From the NCBI RefSeq assembly GCF_000711195.1, contig NZ_JOMR01000001.1:1550001-1614000 (forward strand): a DNA stretch of 64,000 nt, read 5' to 3'. Every line of letters starts with the position of its first letter. Positions within the stretch are counted from its first letter, which is position 1. Source of the stretch: Thiomicrospira pelophila DSM 1534. Lineage in GTDB: Bacteria; Pseudomonadota; Gammaproteobacteria; Thiomicrospirales; Thiomicrospiraceae. The position numbers and the translations under genes are program-made. The notes below the pieces were generated by a model. It did no database searches and was not told where the DNA came from. It worked only from the letters and a program-made list of their open reading frames with translations. Shown here piece after piece: positions 49,461 through 56,085 of the stretch.

Positions 49461-49508
49461 ATCCGCATCCTTACATCTAAATTTGAATATTTTACATCGA
49501 CACAAACA

Positions 49509-49542
49509 AAAAAGCCCTCCCGCAAAGCTGGGAGGGCTTTTT
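49509..49542 (-). terminator. Terminator of pal
   Basis: A 13-bp stem (arms 49509-49521 and 49530-49542, core GCCCTCCC/GGGAGGGC) with an 8-base loop and a T-run on the minus strand. It lies 22 bp after the pal stop and separates pal from pepN. Confidence 0.93.
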
Positions 49543-49563
49543 AAATGAAAAGTCTACTATGGA

Positions 49564-50121
49564 TTAGTAAACAAATTCACCGCGACGGTTCTTAGCCCAA
49601 GCTTCGTTGTTGCTTGCATCAACAAGTGGACGGTCTTCGCCAAAACTAATTACATCAATACGATCAGCTTCTACACCCTCGGCAATCAATGCGTTCTTGA
49701 TTGCATTCGCACGACGCTCACCTAAAGCAAGGTTGTATTCGCGTGAACCACGCTCATCACAGTGACCTTCTACTGTAAGCTTAGCTTCTTGGTTAAGCGC
49801 CAAGTAATCAGCGTGCATTTTGATCACGTCATGATACTCAGATTTCACTTCTGAACGGTCAAAGTCGAACTGGACGCGCTTGCCTTCTAAAGCAGCATAC
49901 AAGCCTGCAATCTCTTGTGCTGTTTGAACCGCAGCTGCGTCAGCGGTATCCTCAACTTGACCAACCAAGCTACCTGAGTCGTCCGAACCTGTACTTGTTT
50001 GTGAAACAGAATCAGATGTTGATACACCTGCACTTTCGTCAGTTGGCGTAGAACTACAACCAACTAATGCAACACCAAGGGCCCCGACTATAAATAACTG
50101 CTTTAAACGTTCTAATGACAT
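49564..50121 (-). CDS. pal: Peptidoglycan-associated lipoprotein Pal
   Basis: Pal ties the outer membrane to peptidoglycan as part of the Tol-Pal system used in cell constriction. The 185-residue precursor has lipobox LVGC (Cys22), a Ser/Thr/Asp-rich linker and an OmpA-like domain (about 78-185) with VQFDFDRSEV, VEGHCDERGSREYNLALGER (20 residues) and the DAP-contacting NRRGEF. GGAG lies seven bases before the ATG. The tol genes are not adjacent here. It has its own terminator. Confidence 0.96.
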   Translation of the reverse strand: MSLERLKQLFIVGALGVALVGCSSTPTDESAGVSTSDSVSQTSTGSDDSGSLVGQVEDTADAAAVQTAQEIAGLYAALEGKRVQFDFDRSEVKSEYHDVIKMHADYLALNQEAKLTVEGHCDERGSREYNLALGERRANAIKNALIAEGVEADRIDVISFGEDRPLVDASNNEAWAKNRRGEFVY

Positions 50122-50428
50122 ACATTTCTCCGTGGGTTTTGAGTTAAAAGAGTATCCAATTGCGTTTGATTATAACAAATTGCCAACATTGCATACACTT
50201 TAATAACACCCAAAACAAACAAAAAGTCTATTTTATTTTTAAACAAACTTAACTTTATCGTCAAAAAATCGACTTTTGAGAATTATAAACATAAAAAAAC
50301 CCGACTCAAGGTCGGGCTAAGCGGGCTACATATTCAAAGGAAACGATCTCTCGAATTCCATCACAGCTTCATTAAACCATAACCGCTTAAAATTCTAATT
50401 GACCCACATCAATTTTAAAGTAAACGAA
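50122..50428. other. Spacer between fnr and pal
   Basis: A 307-bp AT-rich stretch. It holds the fnr terminator (50293-50316) and presumably the pal promoter. I see no gene. Confidence 0.6.
50293..50316 (-). terminator. Terminator of fnr
   Basis: CCCGAC (50300-50305) pairs with GTCGGG (50311-50316), loop TCAAG, followed on the minus strand by seven T residues. Confidence 0.88.
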
Positions 50429-51190
50429 CTACCCCATCTTTACATGAAGATCTTTTCCAATTTCCTGCGAATAGGCTTTTTCGCCTGCCAACTCTCTCAA
50501 CCTCTCTAAATCAAAAATTTTTACTTCCTTGCGTTTCCAGTGCACTACTTTATCTTTCGCCAATCGAGCTAAAATTCGTGATACGGTTTCAGGAGTCAAG
50601 CCTAAGTACATAGCGACATCTCGCTGTAAGACATTAAACCTAAATTCCGTATGCAAATAACCTCGATTCATAAATCGATGTGACAAGTTCCAAATAAAGT
50701 GCGCCACACGTTGATCAGCATTACGCTTAGATAAAATTTCAGAATGCACGCGACCATCATTAACTCCTTTACTCATCAAGCAAAACAGCTGGTGATTTAA
50801 AGCGGGAATCTGCATAGATAAGGTTTCTAACTGATCAAAAGGAATGGCGCAAACTGATGTAGTATCCAGCGCAACGGCATTGCACTGATAGTGTTTGGTA
50901 CTAAGTGCATCCAAACCAATAACATCGCCTGGAAGGTAAAAACCTAGAATCTGTTCGTCTCCCTGGTTAGTCAGATTATAAACCTTAACTACACCCGCCT
51001 TGATGGCAAAGACTGAATCAAAACTTTCGCCAAACCTATATAAATGGTCACCCTTATGCAAAGGTGATTTGCGTTCAACTATAGAATCCAGTCGGGTAAT
51101 ATCAGCCCTCATTAATCCGGTCGGAAAGCAAATTTTTTGAAGACCACAATTTGGGCATCCAATATTAAATGCATTTTTTAGTTCGCCCAC
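50429..51190 (-). CDS. fnr: Oxygen-sensing regulator Fnr
   Basis: Fnr holds an oxygen-labile [4Fe-4S] cluster and switches genes between aerobic and low-oxygen states. The 253-residue protein has all four ligands: Cys12, Cys15, Cys21 (C-x2-C-x5-C) and Cys114 in TSVCAIPF, matching E. coli Cys20/23/29/122. The cyclic-nucleotide-like beta barrel is followed by the helix-turn-helix VAMYLGLTPETVSRILARL, whose Glu, Ser and Arg (ETVSR) match the residues that read TTGAT-N4-ATCAA. The start is GTG at 51190 with GGGAG five bases upstream. It is divergent from the kinase-Rieske gene over a 525-bp spacer, so regulation of that gene by Fnr is possible. Confidence 0.94.
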   Translation of the reverse strand: MGELKNAFNIGCPNCGLQKICFPTGLMRADITRLDSIVERKSPLHKGDHLYRFGESFDSVFAIKAGVVKVYNLTNQGDEQILGFYLPGDVIGLDALSTKHYQCNAVALDTTSVCAIPFDQLETLSMQIPALNHQLFCLMSKGVNDGRVHSEILSKRNADQRVAHFIWNLSHRFMNRGYLHTEFRFNVLQRDVAMYLGLTPETVSRILARLAKDKVVHWKRKEVKIFDLERLRELAGEKAYSQEIGKDLHVKMG

Positions 51191-51715
51191 TTCCGCTCCC
51201 AGGATAAAAATCTGTTTTATGTATTTTGGTTTACGTGCAATTGATTCTAACGGCTTTTGATATGACTGTCACTCATACTGACCCCTCGCTAATTTTATTA
51301 ACCTATAAATATTTTATTATGAAAACAAATCCTCTTTTATACTATGGTTTTATAACTTGACTAGTTTTTAATCAATCTAATATTTCCTCGCAGATTTAAA
51401 GCACTTAGTTCATCACCAGGCATATAGTCCACAAAGTTATCCACATATATTGTGAATAATGTTCAGCATAAAAAAACAGCCGAATAATTTATTTATTACT
51501 TTATTTTCAACAGGTTAGTGTTTTTAATAAAAATGCAATACCTAAATTTTACTATTAAGTTCCACTTTGTTTACCCAGGTCTTGACACATCGCTTAATGT
51601 TAGTTCAAGAAACCCAAGCTTATGGAAAATTATGCTAAACTTCAGCCCATTTAAAACATGACCATGCCCTGCATTTGCATAACTTTTTGGGCTTTATTGA
51701 TCACGGAAAACAACT
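51191..51715. other. Long AT-rich divergent spacer, fnr to kinase-Rieske gene
   Basis: A 525-bp spacer with no credible gene. It contains a pair of inverted DnaA-box sequences (51437-51459), a TTGACA at 51582-51587 without a good -10 partner, and an imperfect TTGAC...ATCAA pair (51357-51375) that is too widely spaced for an Fnr site. Confidence 0.6.
51437..51459. promoter_or_regulatory. Inverted pair of DnaA-box sequences
   Basis: TTATCCACA (51437-51445) is the strongest DnaA-box sequence; 5 bp on, TGTGAATAA (51451-51459) is the complement of TTATTCACA, also a consensus match. Together they form a 23-bp near-palindrome in AT-rich DNA. Only two boxes are seen, so this is not enough for an origin, but DnaA control or titration is possible. 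Confidence 0.5.
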
Positions 51716-52924
51716 ATGGCAAAAATTCTTGGCACTGGTAACCTTGTATTGGATACCATTTTAACTCTAGACCACTACCCACAAGAAGACGAAGAAGTGC
51801 GCGCTCAATCTCGCCAGTTTCGATTCGGTGGCAACACAGCCAACACCTTGTACGTTCTGTCTCAACTGGGTCATGAGCCAGCCATTGCAACCACCTTGGC
51901 AACCGATGAACAAGCCAAACATCTCAAAAAATCCATTCAAGATCACGGCATTTCGACTGACCACATCCAACGCTTTATTAAAGGCGCTACCCCCACGTCT
52001 TACGTAATGGTTTCAAAAAACACCGGATCTCGCAGTATTACGCATTATCGAGATTTGCCGGAACTGGACTTTGAACATTTTGCCAAAATTGAAGTGGAGT
52101 CCTATGACTGGCTGCATTTTGAAGGTCGAAACATGGACGCTTTACCGGGCATGCTTAATATTGCTAAAACCTTTTTAGATAATCAGCCCATCTCACTTGA
52201 GGTTGAAAAAGCGCGTGATGGTATCGAAGCCTTATTTGGCTCGGCCAACTTGTTATTGTTTTCACATCATTATGCTAAGCAAAAAGGTTATGAAGATGCT
52301 GAAAGCTTGCTAAAAGACATCCATAAGACGGCTCCAACCGCCAACTTGGTTTGCACCTGGGGTGAGCATGGAGCATGGAGTTTATCAGCCAGTGGTGAGC
52401 TCCTGCACGAGCCTGCACAGCCAATAAAAAAAGTGGTGGATACTTTAGGTGCAGGCGATACCTTCAATGCGGGTGTCATTCACCACTTATTATCTGGAGC
52501 TAACTTAAAAGAAGCCGTACACCAGGCCAGCCTGCTGGCCGCGCGTAAATGCCAGCAAGTTGGTTTAGATAACTTATTACAACCTTTGGCCAGTCGTAAA
52601 CCCATCGCTAATATAAAATTCATTACCAGCTCTAAAGCTACGGTTGTGCCGGCACCAGGCCTACCTCATAAAGTAGTATTAATTAAACATGATAATGAAA
52701 TAAAAGCCTATGAAAACAATTGTCCGCACCAAGATGTGCCGTTGGATGAAGCCTACAAGATTGATATCAATCCATTCGAGATGACAATGAAATGCTCGGT
52801 ACACGATGCGTATTTTCGAATAGAAGACGGGGTTTGTGTTGAGGGGCCATGTTGGCGGGATGAGCTAAAACCGGTCGATATCGAAATTGATGCCGATACC
52901 GGTGGTATTTATTTAGCTGAGTAA
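51716..52924 (+). CDS. PfkB-family sugar kinase fused to a Rieske [2Fe-2S] domain
   Basis: A 402-residue two-domain protein. Residues 1 to about 300 are a ribokinase/PfkB-family kinase of ketohexokinase type: GNLVLDTILTLDHYP, FRFGGNTANTLYVLSQLG, and the catalytic GAGD (245-248, base Asp248) in VDTLGAGDTFNAG. Residues about 308-402 are a Rieske-type ferredoxin domain with Cys336-x-His338 (NCPHQD) and Cys360-x2-His363 (KCSVHDAYF), the complete ligand set. An electron-transfer or redox-sensing module on a sugar kinase is unusual, and the combination is not one I know as described. A redox switch or a phosphosugar-linked oxidoreductase partner are the simplest ideas. The gene is monocistronic, divergent from fnr, and ends in a palindromic terminator. 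Confidence 0.9.
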   Translation: MAKILGTGNLVLDTILTLDHYPQEDEEVRAQSRQFRFGGNTANTLYVLSQLGHEPAIATTLATDEQAKHLKKSIQDHGISTDHIQRFIKGATPTSYVMVSKNTGSRSITHYRDLPELDFEHFAKIEVESYDWLHFEGRNMDALPGMLNIAKTFLDNQPISLEVEKARDGIEALFGSANLLLFSHHYAKQKGYEDAESLLKDIHKTAPTANLVCTWGEHGAWSLSASGELLHEPAQPIKKVVDTLGAGDTFNAGVIHHLLSGANLKEAVHQASLLAARKCQQVGLDNLLQPLASRKPIANIKFITSSKATVVPAPGLPHKVVLIKHDNEIKAYENNCPHQDVPLDEAYKIDINPFEMTMKCSVHDAYFRIEDGVCVEGPCWRDELKPVDIEIDADTGGIYLAE

Positions 52925-52934
52925 TCAAATAATG

Positions 52935-52956
52935 AAAGCACCAGGCCTGGTGCTTT
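52935..52956. terminator. Palindromic terminator between the kinase-Rieske gene and rlmB
   Basis: AAAGCACCAGGCCTGGTGCTTT, a perfect 22-bp dispersed palindrome 10 bp after the kinase stop. It ends right at the 3' end of convergent rlmB, whose stop lies within or next to the A/T flank, so it can serve both. Confidence 0.8.
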
Positions 52957-53689
52957 AAAACGCGTTTTTTTGGCGCTGGATTTCATATAAAGTCACACCC
53001 GTAGCAACCGATACATTTAAACTTTCTACTTGTCCAAGCATCGGAATCGCAATAAGCTCGTCACAATTTTGGCGTGTTAATTGACGTAAACCAGAACCTT
53101 CCGCCCCCATAACCAAACCCAAACGACCTGAAAACTGAGTTTGATATAAAGTTTTATCGGTCTCACCCGCCAAGCCAACCACCCATAAACCTGCTTGCTG
53201 TAGGCTATTAATTGTGCGACTTAAGTTAGTCACGGCAACTAACCGAACTGTTTCCGCTGCGCCACTAGCGACCTTACGTACGGTTGCATTTAAACCAACC
53301 GAATTGTTTTTGGGTATTACGACTGCATCTACCCCGGTGGCATCCGCACTTCGTAAAATAGCCCCTAGGTTATGTGGGTCCTGAACTTCATCTAAAAATA
53401 GTATCAAACAATTAGGCGACTGCTCAACTAAGGCCAACAAATCTGATTCAGAAAACTCAGCTTGGGGAGCCACTTCGGCCATCACACCTTGATGTACAGC
53501 CTCCATTTTGGCAAAAAACGATTTGGGTTCAAAGCGCGTTTGCACACCTAAAGCTTGTGCTTGATTCAGCAAAGTTTGTTGGCGCGGGTTTAAGCGACCT
53601 TCTATCAGAATTAATTGATAGATTAAATGCGGCGACTGTTTTAACAAACGCTCAATCGCGTGCACACCATAAAGTGTGTCAACACTCAT
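52955..53689 (-). CDS. rlmB: 23S rRNA (guanosine-2251-2'-O)-methyltransferase RlmB
   Basis: RlmB methylates G2251 in the peptidyl-transferase P loop. The 244-residue SpoU-type (trefoil-knot) enzyme starts VDTLYGVHAIERLL and has the three SPOUT motifs: DEVQDPHNLGAILRSADATG (20 residues), GAEGSGLRQLTRQNCDE and IPMLGQVESLNVSVATG. Length equals E. coli RlmB (243). Its start overlaps the rnr stop by 4 bp, the normal rnr-rlmB pair. Confidence 0.96.
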   Translation of the reverse strand: MSVDTLYGVHAIERLLKQSPHLIYQLILIEGRLNPRQQTLLNQAQALGVQTRFEPKSFFAKMEAVHQGVMAEVAPQAEFSESDLLALVEQSPNCLILFLDEVQDPHNLGAILRSADATGVDAVVIPKNNSVGLNATVRKVASGAAETVRLVAVTNLSRTINSLQQAGLWVVGLAGETDKTLYQTQFSGRLGLVMGAEGSGLRQLTRQNCDELIAIPMLGQVESLNVSVATGVTLYEIQRQKNAF

Positions 53690-56085
53690 GATTCAGCCTT
53701 AGGGCCTCTAGGCTTACGTTTTTTGCGATAATTACGCGAACGGCGTTTTTTCTTCGGTTTGCCTTCACCATCCTCATCCGAGTCTGCTTGAGGCAAATCG
53801 TTGTTAGCTTCAACTTTATCCACCGAGTCACCCTCTAAAACTGGGTTTGGGTTTAAATGGCGGATTAAACGCAGGTCAATTTTTCGCGTGTCTAAAACGA
53901 CTTGTGCAACTTGAACTTCAACACGATCGCCTAAACGATAAACCAAACCAGTACGTTCACCTTTTAAACAATGACGCACAGGATCGAAATGGAAATAGTC
54001 TTCGCCCAGCTCAGTAATGTGCACTAAGCCTTCGATATATAAATCGTCCAACTCAACAAACATGCCGAAACTGGTGACCGAAGAAATAACCGCCTGATAC
54101 TGCTCACCCAAACGGTGTGACAAGAACTCACACTTCAAGAAGGTAACGGCATCACGCGTAGCTTCATCCGCTCGACGCTCGCTATCTGAGCAATGACGAC
54201 CAAAGACCTCCATCTGACTTTCAGTGTAAGCAAAACCTTCGGTTCCTTGCTTCAACCAAGCGTGACGAATTGCACGATGAATTAACAAATCTGGATAACG
54301 ACGAATTGGCGAAGTAAAATGCGCATAATGCTCATAATTCAAACCAAAATGCCCTTTGTTCTCTGGCTGATACACGGCCTGATTCATACTTCTTAGCATC
54401 ACGGTTTTAACCAAGTGAGAATAAGACTTACCTTCAACTTGACTCATGACTGCATCAAAATCTTGTGCGGTAGGCTCATCGCCTCCACCTAACTGCAAAC
54501 CAAAATCTGCTAAAAAGCCTTTTAACTTTTTAAGCTTTTCTTCTTTTGGCTTTTCGTGCACACGGTAAAGGATCGGCAGCTTATGCCATTTTAGGAAACG
54601 AGCTGTAGCCACGTTTGCCATTAACATACATTCTTCAATGAGCTTATGCGCTTCGTTGCGAACCACTGGGATGATTTTATCGATCTTACGATCGGCATCA
54701 AAAATCATTTGGGTTTCAACCGTATCAAACTCTAATGCACCGCGCTCAGAACGCGATTTTAATAGAATTTTGTAAAGTTCATTTAAGGATTCAATATGTT
54801 CAACCATCGGCGCAAACGTTTGCTTATGCTCACTTTGCTCATTCGTCAAAATATCGTGTACCTGGTTATAGGTTAAACGCGCTTTAGAATTCATTACGGC
54901 TTGATAGAACTGGCTACGCTCAAGCTGGCCATCATCCGAAATATTCATGTCGCAAACCATACATAAACGGTCAACCTGTGGATTCAACGAACATAATTCG
55001 TTTGACAGTTTTTCCGGCAACATAGGAATAACACGTTGTGGGAAATAAACCGAATTCCCACGCTTATAGGCTTCTTTATCAAGCTCACTGCCTGGTTTGA
55101 CATAATGCGACACATCCGCAATTGCCACCACTAAACGCCAACCATTTTTACGGCGTTTGGCAAAAACGGCATCATCGAAATCCTTAGAATCCGCGCCATC
55201 AATCGTCATTAGCGGTAGGTGGCGTAAATCTTTGCGGCCTTCCATATCCGCTTCTGTGACCTGATTTGGAATTTGATCCAACTCAGCCAGTAAGCTTTCC
55301 GGCCATTCGTTCGGAATACCAAACGCATGAATCGCAGTATCAATCTCCATCCCTGGCGCCATATAGTCGCCCATAATCTCAACGATTTTACCAATCGGGC
55401 CATGACGTCTTGAAGGCTGCATCAGGATATCTACCAAAACAATTTGGCCTTCCTGAGCGCCCAATAAACCATCAGCGGGCACAAATACATCTTGGGTGAT
55501 GCGATTATTGTTGGGATGAACCCAAGCCATGTTTTCTTCTATGTGTACTCGACCTACTAACTGGGTTGAATTATGATGCGTTACTTCGATAATGGTCGCT
55601 TCTTTACGACCACGGCGATCTTCACCAATAACGGAGGCTATGACCTCGTCACCGTGTAAGACTTTATGCATCTCTTGAGCCGACAAAAATAGATCGTCGT
55701 CCATAGAATCCGTGCTTAAAAAGCCAAAGCCGTCGGGGTGGCCAATGACCTTACCTTTAATCAAATCCATTTTCTGAATCAAGCCAAACGCACCACGACG
55801 ATTCTTTATTAACTGGCCATCACGTAGCATCGCTTTTAAACGACGCGACAAAGCTTCGAAACGCTCTTCGTCTTCAGGAAAGATATCTAGGCTATCAGCC
55901 AATTGTTCCAAACGCATCGGCTTATTGACTTGCTCAAGGTGTTCTAGGATAAACTCTCGACTTGGAATAGGGTTGTCGTACTTTTCAGCTTCGCGCTGGG
56001 CAAAAGGATCATCAACGGATGCAATATTTTCTTTAGTCACTCGATACCATCTTAAATTTTGCGGCCCGGTAAAATAATTTCCCAT
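53686..56085 (-). CDS. rnr: Ribonuclease R
   Basis: RNase R is a processive 3'-5' exonuclease that degrades structured RNA. Domains in order: N-terminal winged helix (REFILEHLEQVNKPMRLEQL, 20 residues), cold-shock domains, the RNB catalytic domain with DGADSKDFDDAVFA (metal-binding aspartates), an S1 domain (QYQAVISSVTSFGMFVELDD, 20 residues) and a basic C-terminal tail with KKKRRSRNYRKKRKPRG. The ATG at 56085 (799 aa) is preferred; its AGG ribosome site is supplied by a variant copy of the dispersed palindrome. A shorter start at GTG (residue 16 of this frame) near VTKENIASV is possible, since other RNase R proteins begin near DPFQEREAEKY. Confidence 0.95.
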   Translation of the reverse strand: MGNYFTGPQNLRWYRVTKENIASVDDPFAQREAEKYDNPIPSREFILEHLEQVNKPMRLEQLADSLDIFPEDEERFEALSRRLKAMLRDGQLIKNRRGAFGLIQKMDLIKGKVIGHPDGFGFLSTDSMDDDLFLSAQEMHKVLHGDEVIASVIGEDRRGRKEATIIEVTHHNSTQLVGRVHIEENMAWVHPNNNRITQDVFVPADGLLGAQEGQIVLVDILMQPSRRHGPIGKIVEIMGDYMAPGMEIDTAIHAFGIPNEWPESLLAELDQIPNQVTEADMEGRKDLRHLPLMTIDGADSKDFDDAVFAKRRKNGWRLVVAIADVSHYVKPGSELDKEAYKRGNSVYFPQRVIPMLPEKLSNELCSLNPQVDRLCMVCDMNISDDGQLERSQFYQAVMNSKARLTYNQVHDILTNEQSEHKQTFAPMVEHIESLNELYKILLKSRSERGALEFDTVETQMIFDADRKIDKIIPVVRNEAHKLIEECMLMANVATARFLKWHKLPILYRVHEKPKEEKLKKLKGFLADFGLQLGGGDEPTAQDFDAVMSQVEGKSYSHLVKTVMLRSMNQAVYQPENKGHFGLNYEHYAHFTSPIRRYPDLLIHRAIRHAWLKQGTEGFAYTESQMEVFGRHCSDSERRADEATRDAVTFLKCEFLSHRLGEQYQAVISSVTSFGMFVELDDLYIEGLVHITELGEDYFHFDPVRHCLKGERTGLVYRLGDRVEVQVAQVVLDTRKIDLRLIRHLNPNPVLEGDSVDKVEANNDLPQADSDEDGEGKPKKKRRSRNYRKKRKPRGPKAES

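Follow-up and report, generated by a model that had tools for sequence, protein, structure and literature searches.

Why should a sugar kinase carry the ligands of an iron-sulfur cluster? The question is raised by an open reading frame of Thiomicrospira pelophila DSM 1534, situated in the window (the whole stretch of 64,000 nucleotides that was analyzed), in which a PfkB kinase is joined to a Rieske domain. The initial annotation took the product for a ketohexokinase-type enzyme under redox control, or coupled to an oxidoreductase. The reading that we prefer, to which we assign a probability of about 40%, is that a ketose C1-kinase of Calvin cycle bacteria has a Rieske ferredoxin as its partner, the redox state of which gates the kinase.

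Architecture and conservation of the fused protein

The frame opens with ATG and runs for 402 residues without an internal stop. Both domain matches exceed the curated Pfam cut-offs, PF00294 (PfkB) covering residues 13-286 (E 1.7e-36) and PF00355 (Rieske) residues 317-381 (E 2.8e-10), and the proposed fusion is upheld in a single open frame. The catalytic GAGD that had been pointed out lies at residues 245-248, and the residue numbers given for the Cys-x-His and Cys-x2-His set (336/338 and 360/363) are correct, with the full set present. An AlphaFold2 model of the full chain has a pLDDT of 90.7 and a pTM of 0.74. The features of the locus, which belongs to a genome assembled as one 2.1-Mb contig, are collected in Table 1.

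Table 1. Features of the fused gene and its surroundings (positions in the window)
Feature	Position	Strand	Basis and remarks
Divergent fnr	50429..51190	-	A homologue adjoins the fused gene in 13 of the 18 clustered loci of the family
Spacer between fnr and the fused gene, 525 bp between starts	51191..51715		Scans for FNR boxes (up to one mismatch) and with Rfam (E 0.1) both negative
Inverted pair of DnaA-box-like 9-mers, TTATCCACA-N5-TGTGAATAA	51437..51459		Kept at this position in 32 of the 34 loci of the family, that of T. pelophila among them
Fused ketohexokinase-type kinase/Rieske protein	51716..52924	+	402 aa plus stop; ORF, translation, two Pfam domains over cut-offs
PfkB/ketohexokinase-type kinase domain, residues 1-290	51716..52585	+	Pfam, PDB match, alignment, fold
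Linker, residues 291-303	52586..52624	+	Between both domain matches; block 291-300 has pLDDT 74, below the kinase
Rieske-type ferredoxin domain, residues 304-402 (PF00355 at 317-381)	52625..52921	+	Pfam, model, fold search
[2Fe-2S] ligand motif (predicted), C336-x-H338-x21-C360-x2-H363	52721..52804	+	Sequence; without variation in the 21 rows of alignment A1 and the 16 rows of A2
Extra cysteine pair, C374 and C379 (GxCxxGPC)	52835..52852	+	Invariant in A1 and A2; in 36 of 36 family loci; also in separate Rieske genes
Convergent rlmB	52955..53689	-	TIGR00186 over cut-off; next to the fused gene in 15 of the 18 clustered loci of the family

A stop codon missed between the domains, which had been named as a possible source of error, is excluded because the fusion is conserved throughout the order, where the protein was found in 62 of 62 genomes and as a single uninterrupted frame in 60; the two exceptions have a TAG (G021) or carry the gene in two pieces (G035). 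The 36 Thiomicrospiraceae loci read as DNA are all fused and retain the four ligands together with the C374/C379 pair. Conservation across order and family thus rules out an artefact of sequencing or annotation.

Within the family the Rieske part is, by a small margin overall, the better conserved of the two. It is 87% identical between the window and locus L065, where the kinase part is 54% identical, and 90% as opposed to 72% in the comparison with L060. When 18 family rows are compared in all 153 pairs, the mean identity is 65% for the Rieske part and 60% for the kinase, the former being the higher in 123 pairs. The relation is reversed in comparisons with three non-family fused proteins (Rieske 28-35%, kinase 42-47%). 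A dN/dS of 0.03 was obtained for both parts in the comparison of the window with L059, at a dS that has already reached 1.1-1.8; the other pairs compared were saturated or partly undefined. Named genome records, when scanned, yielded 15 loci, and four pairs among all loci are duplicate records (L059/L002, L060/L003, L069/L137 and L033/L074). One record labelled as a Lysobacterales metagenome-assembled genome (L062) carries a fused gene of Thiomicrospiraceae type that sits in that clade, and is probably a misbinned contig.

The kinase domain

Sequence and fold comparisons agree with the proposal of a ketohexokinase (KHK) type. Among PDB sequences, the ten best matches, which span residues 3-287 at E 5.9e-52 to 5e-49, are all ketohexokinases, and the next is a sulfofructose kinase at E 1.3e-12; the phmmer value of the kinase part against KHK is 2.7e-52. 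Foldseek with the AlphaFold2 model likewise places KHK at each of ranks 1-21 (TM 0.86-0.93 on target), with 35% identity and a TM of 0.92 on target in the best row. Of 31 NCBIfam families matched, none of the best 25 is over its cut-off; the leading one among these is ribokinase (80.9 versus a cut-off of 299.65 bits), and no KHK model is found among the 25. Residues D13, N40, N43, R106, E136 and D248 are invariant in the 21 fused sequences of alignment A1 and align with human D15, N42, N45, R108, E139 and D258, which we take to be the residues lining the KHK active site.

Likeness to mammalian ketohexokinase (fructokinase, KHK-A/C; 2hlz, 3nbv, 9p6q) extends over residues 3-287 at E about 1e-52, with 34-36% identity in the fold rows and the active-site positions common to both enzymes. 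KHK chains in the PDB are 298-318 residues long and differ in that the kinase match runs to the chain end, with no Rieske domain beyond it. The second fold group, behind the ketohexokinases, is formed by the sulfofructose kinase YihV of Escherichia coli (7ag6), which also has no Rieske domain and is 24-25% identical, compared with the 34-36% of KHK. YihV is a PfkB kinase that acts at C1 of a ketose, and the substrate of the fused kinase is likewise predicted to be a ketose.

The Rieske domain

The C-terminal 107 residues, modelled alone, reach a pLDDT of 91.3. Rieske-type ferredoxins and NirD proteins align with this model at Z 10.6-14.2, the value for the Rieske-type ferredoxin 2i7f being 14.2 (rmsd 1.9 over 98 residues). 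The fold is common, over the whole 107-residue domain, to the ferredoxins of aromatic dioxygenases (2i7f, 3gce and 1fqt) and to NirD (3c0d and 2jo6), at an identity of 14-22%. A search of the PDB by sequence with the Rieske part alone gave no match at 0.01, and the scores fall below the cut-offs of the NirD model TIGR02378 (16.5 versus 74.65 bits) and of the HcaC models NF007422 (19.7 versus 113 bits) and NF042948 (16.2 versus 150 bits).

The C-x-H and C-x2-H ligands are those of Rieske-type dioxygenase ferredoxins, in which the two ligand boxes usually stand 15-17 residues apart. The fused protein differs from these ferredoxins in the 21 residues between its boxes, in the extra CxxxxC pair and in the sugar kinase attached to it. 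Judged by its sequence, the domain probably binds a [2Fe-2S] cluster. The four cluster ligands and the second cysteine pair are invariant in the fused and the separate forms of the protein, the latter of which are considered in the following section.

Pairing of kinase and Rieske genes in Gammaproteobacteria

The partnership of the two domains is wider than the fusion. A set of 369 genomes, drawn evenly from Gammaproteobacteria, was searched for the kinase at E 1e-20 and for the Rieske family, by a 16-row profile, at E 1e-12. The kinase is present in 102 genomes and the Rieske family in 143, with both in 60 (Fisher odds 3.2, p 1.5e-6). The two share a strand and are no more than 1.5 kb apart in 39 of these 60, and two genomes for which the Rieske position is not listed (G219 and G227) are counted as non-adjacent. 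Four of the 39 are Thiomicrospiraceae; the other 35 come from 56 genomes with both outside that family. The Rieske gene is downstream of the kinase in 38 of the adjacent pairs and upstream in one (G304), and the pairs cover 25 of the 55 families in which the kinase occurs.

All 35 adjacent genomes outside the family were read as DNA, and five of them (G206, G115, G421, G328 and G218) have a fused gene. The genes are separate in the other 30, and in 28 of these the Rieske motif starts 128-188 nt past the kinase stop, and the Rieske open frame, taken from stop to stop with its start codon left unsettled, extends back to the kinase stop or beyond; the remaining two are G304 and G329, in which the Rieske match is cut by the contig end. 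A tree of 80 kinase sequences requires three changes to explain the fused state, placed in Thiomicrospiraceae, in G206 with G421, G328 and G218, and in G115; its deep branches are weak, and the well-supported branches alone are compatible with one origin of the fusion. The functional tie between the iron-sulfur module and the kinase that had been suggested gains support from adjacency in 25 families, and from the three changes to the extent that a single origin is not the true history.

Neither partner is confined to the pair. No Rieske match of this family was found at 1e-12 in 42 of the 102 kinase genomes, and a further 21 have it elsewhere or at an unlisted position, which means that the kinase can function with no partner beside it. 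Conversely, 83 of the 369 genomes have a Rieske gene without the kinase, and the neighbours of the Rieske gene are varied in the 20 such loci that were read. This variety, and a tree whose firm branches do not force more than one fusion, would be expected if unrelated neighbouring genes had been joined by the loss of a stop and then kept without any coupling between the products; the recurrence of adjacency in 25 families, the presence of the fusion in every genome of the order and the retention of the ligands in all 36 family loci make such an incidental fusion highly improbable. The pairing suggests, instead, a real and still unexplained partnership in many carbon-fixing bacteria.

When 398 genomes were drawn separately from the phylum, two matches were obtained at 1e-25, the own genome and G627, both Gammaproteobacteria; the share of other classes in that draw is not given, and it says little on wider spread. 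In ten loci that have no adjacent Rieske gene, a gene for a small protein of about 100 residues with cysteine pairs lies directly upstream of the kinase (L085:7080-7391, with relatives in L081, L082, L087, L089, L091, L096, L097, L106 and L113).

The tie to carbon fixation

The distribution of the kinase follows that of ribulose bisphosphate carboxylase (RuBisCO), the large subunit of which was scored by PF00016 at E 1e-40. RuBisCO was found in 176 of the 369 genomes, namely in 94 of the 102 that have the kinase and in 82 of the 267 that lack it (odds 26.5, p 1.4e-28), and the genomes entering this statistic are related rather than independent. Counted by family, on the assumption of 182 families in the draw, a drawn member has RuBisCO in 52 of the 55 kinase families and in 34 of the 127 others. 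Eight kinase-positive genomes have no RuBisCO. Since the genomes are related and the pattern within families is mixed, the link may in part reflect shared ancestry.

Further evidence comes from the immediate surroundings of the kinase outside the family, where 71 loci (937 kb) were searched in their flanks for phosphoribulokinase, the large and small subunits of form I RuBisCO, CbbX and a CbbR-like regulator. A homologue of the T. pelophila phosphoribulokinase was found 1.1-4.0 kb away from the kinase in six of them (genomes G150, G244, G104, G121, G627 and G197; loci L138, L142, L146, L108, L155 and L080, the last being that of G197), whereas 0.31 would be expected at random (P 1e-6) on the assumption of one such gene per 3.0 Mb. 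G244 and G104 belong to one family, and the corresponding probability for five or more neighbours is 1.9e-5. Five of the six genes pass the 362-bit cut-off of NF011997, and that of G197 scores 356.9. A seventh genome (G141) has the kinase about 0.4 kb from cbbX; after the kinase come a pentapeptide gene, a convergent cbbL-cbbS-cbbX cluster and, on its far side, a LysR regulator. In the other 64 loci the flanks examined contain neither phosphoribulokinase nor form I RuBisCO. The proposed connection with phosphosugar metabolism is thus supported, for autotrophs, by the RuBisCO association and by the proximity of phosphoribulokinase.

Two genomes without such a kinase show Calvin cycle genes near a Rieske gene. 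In G198 (L123) a phosphoribulokinase is 2.9 kb from the Rieske frame, and in G075 a separate Rieske gene is divergent from a gene for the RuBisCO large subunit, with 0.7 kb between the matches (L120:3955-5964), a single case on which we base no conclusion.

The genome of T. pelophila has a phosphoribulokinase of its own, far from the fused gene (C1:181493) and over the NF011997 cut-off (395.7 versus 362 bits); the fused kinase is not, then, the sole phosphoribulokinase of the organism, and it is not needed for the main step of the cycle. This leaves room for a salvage or repair function, in which the kinase would rephosphorylate free ketoses (ribulose, xylulose or sedoheptulose) leaked from the Calvin cycle by the action of phosphatases and the Rieske domain would serve to stabilize or localize it. 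The RuBisCO link and the seven genomes with phosphoribulokinase or cbb genes near the kinase would fit, but the retention of a cluster domain with invariant ligands is left unexplained, and we regard salvage as rather unlikely.

Other correlates and the neighbouring genes

Sulfur oxidation was rejected as a real correlate of the kinase, as SoxB is equally frequent on both sides: of the 176 RuBisCO genomes 80 were searched, 40 with the kinase and 40 lacking it, and each group has SoxB in 29. The sucrose-phosphatase family PF05116 is commoner where the kinase is present, occurring in 61 of 94 as opposed to 28 of 82 RuBisCO-positive genomes, and in four of eight as opposed to three of 56 sampled RuBisCO-negative ones. 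A fructokinase recovering fructose from the sucrose that halophilic autotrophs produce as a compatible solute would account for this difference, the Rieske domain then being secondary. Against it, 33 of the 94 kinase-positive RuBisCO genomes have no PF05116, among them two with the fused gene, G054 from the genus of T. pelophila and G017 from its family, and a different PfkB gene adjoins PF05116 in several genomes: in T. pelophila itself (C1:1486316-1487098, beside matches at 1487219-1488810), in the kinase-positive G182 and G043 and in the kinase-negative G192 and G140. The correlate is mild and is weakened by these separate genes, and sucrose turnover is the least probable of the explanations considered here. 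At 1e-6 the own genome has three PfkB matches, these being the sucrose-linked gene, the fused gene and a frame of 479 residues that is, by its length, probably HldE.

The recurrence of neighbours, which had been proposed as a check, was followed by clustering. In the family, fnr and rlmB recur (Table 1), some of the 18 clustered loci ending short and two of them (L003 and L060) being one record; the other clusters comprise GGDEF, HDOD, SUMF1-like, pentapeptide, ankyrin and other genes, in which a common theme is absent. A gene for a BASS/SBF-family transporter lies 3' of the kinase-Rieske pair in eight genomes (G296, G187, G207, G413, G318, G395, G206 and G351; loci L143, L136, L149, L148, L147, L069, L074 and L141) and follows the Rieske gene alone in two where no such kinase was found (G105 and G245; loci L119 and L134). 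The three transporters that were scanned resemble PanS, below the cut-off of the model, and the window and the family loci examined have no BASS/SBF gene. Also seen beside Rieske genes are an ArsP_1-family permease gene (L110:9101-10309) and genes for ABC transporter ATPases (L075:9488-10246 and L126:4770-5516, the latter by its look).

The position of the BASS/SBF gene hints at a pathway in which a compound is transported, and bears on the strongest of the rivals. According to this, the Rieske protein would be an electron-transfer partner, delivering electrons to an oxidoreductase that acts on the same substrate or product; the kinase would not be regulated, and the fusion would channel the pathway. 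A fold shared with soluble ferredoxins of dioxygenases and with NirD, which are electron carriers or their relatives, is consistent with this, as are the 83 genomes in which the Rieske gene stands without the kinase, but neither an oxygenase nor a ferredoxin reductase appears among the annotated recurrent neighbour clusters (16 listed, 10 of them scanned with Pfam). We consider electron transfer unlikely, although it deserves to be weighed before any other alternative to redox gating.

The region upstream of the fused gene

The divergent neighbour is Fnr by NCBIfam NF008365 (241 versus 228 bits), and this arrangement, together with the long control region, had been offered as an argument for redox regulation. 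The argument is not sustained. The 525-bp spacer (51191-51715) has no FNR box within one mismatch, and only four of 34 family upstream regions have one at that level; redox regulation through fnr was rejected on this basis. The window as a whole has eight one-mismatch sites against 3.7 expected; the nearest to the spacer (50399-50412) falls between the 3' end of fnr and an OmpA-family gene (49564-50121), and another (52761) is inside the coding region of the fused gene. Rfam gave no match at E 0.1 over 49500-53700. The flanking of the fused gene by fnr and rlmB looks like an inherited order, and rlmB is not thought to be part of the function of the fused protein.

What is conserved in the spacer is the pair of DnaA-box-like 9-mers. 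The 23-bp site is found with at most four mismatches in 32 of 34 family upstream regions and with at most one in 30; it is absent from L005 and L006, precedes the fused gene by a median of 283.5 bp and keeps a 5' CACAAAG extension. In 1,308,238 bases of other loci there is one site at up to three mismatches. The GC skew keeps its sign across the site, which is therefore unlikely to be an origin. Sites of this kind include those for DnaA titration, those for DnaA reactivation and DnaA-controlled promoters, and the pair is perhaps one of these.

Concluding remarks

We propose that the ketohexokinase-type enzyme would phosphorylate C1 of a ketose with ATP, mainly in RuBisCO-bearing Gammaproteobacteria, and that it would work with a soluble Rieske-type [2Fe-2S] ferredoxin, encoded as a neighbour in 25 of the 55 kinase families and as part of one protein in Thiomicrospiraceae and five other genomes. 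The Rieske unit may sense or carry redox state and so gate the kinase, which would match the formation of phosphosugars around the Calvin cycle to electron supply. Control of kinase activity by the cluster is what we infer from these associations. Several observations weigh against the proposal: each partner often occurs without the other at its side; phosphoribulokinase and form I RuBisCO are not near the kinase in most non-family loci, and the phosphoribulokinase of T. pelophila itself is distant; the RuBisCO link may partly be ancestry, with eight kinase genomes outside it; and, against fused proteins from other families, the Rieske part is less alike than the kinase.

A parallel is found in the Calvin cycle enzymes under thioredoxin control, such as plant phosphoribulokinase, in which control is exerted through a dithiol exchanged with thioredoxin. 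That enzyme, too, is a sugar-phosphate kinase of an autotroph under redox control, as is proposed for the fused kinase, but it belongs to a different kinase family and relies on a dithiol rather than on a fused [2Fe-2S] domain. That the present case is an undescribed redox switch, a Rieske-gated ketose (or ketose-phosphate) C1-kinase of autotrophic Gammaproteobacteria on which electron supply acts directly and not via thioredoxin, is doubtful as a claim in its entirety. The initial annotation knew of no characterized enzyme with this architecture, and none was found in searches of open-licence PMC papers; PMC2607301 and PMC2621215 treat other genes in the parts available. The two domains are known singly, and their union and the pairing of their genes seem to be undescribed.

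Ketohexokinase is familiar from the fructose metabolism of animals. In the present draw, an enzyme of that type is tied to RuBisCO in 52 of the 55 kinase-bearing families of Gammaproteobacteria, sometimes with phosphoribulokinase as a neighbour. If the Rieske domain controls the kinase, an iron-sulfur cluster would act directly on a sugar kinase, and respiration would thereby be linked to carbon metabolism.
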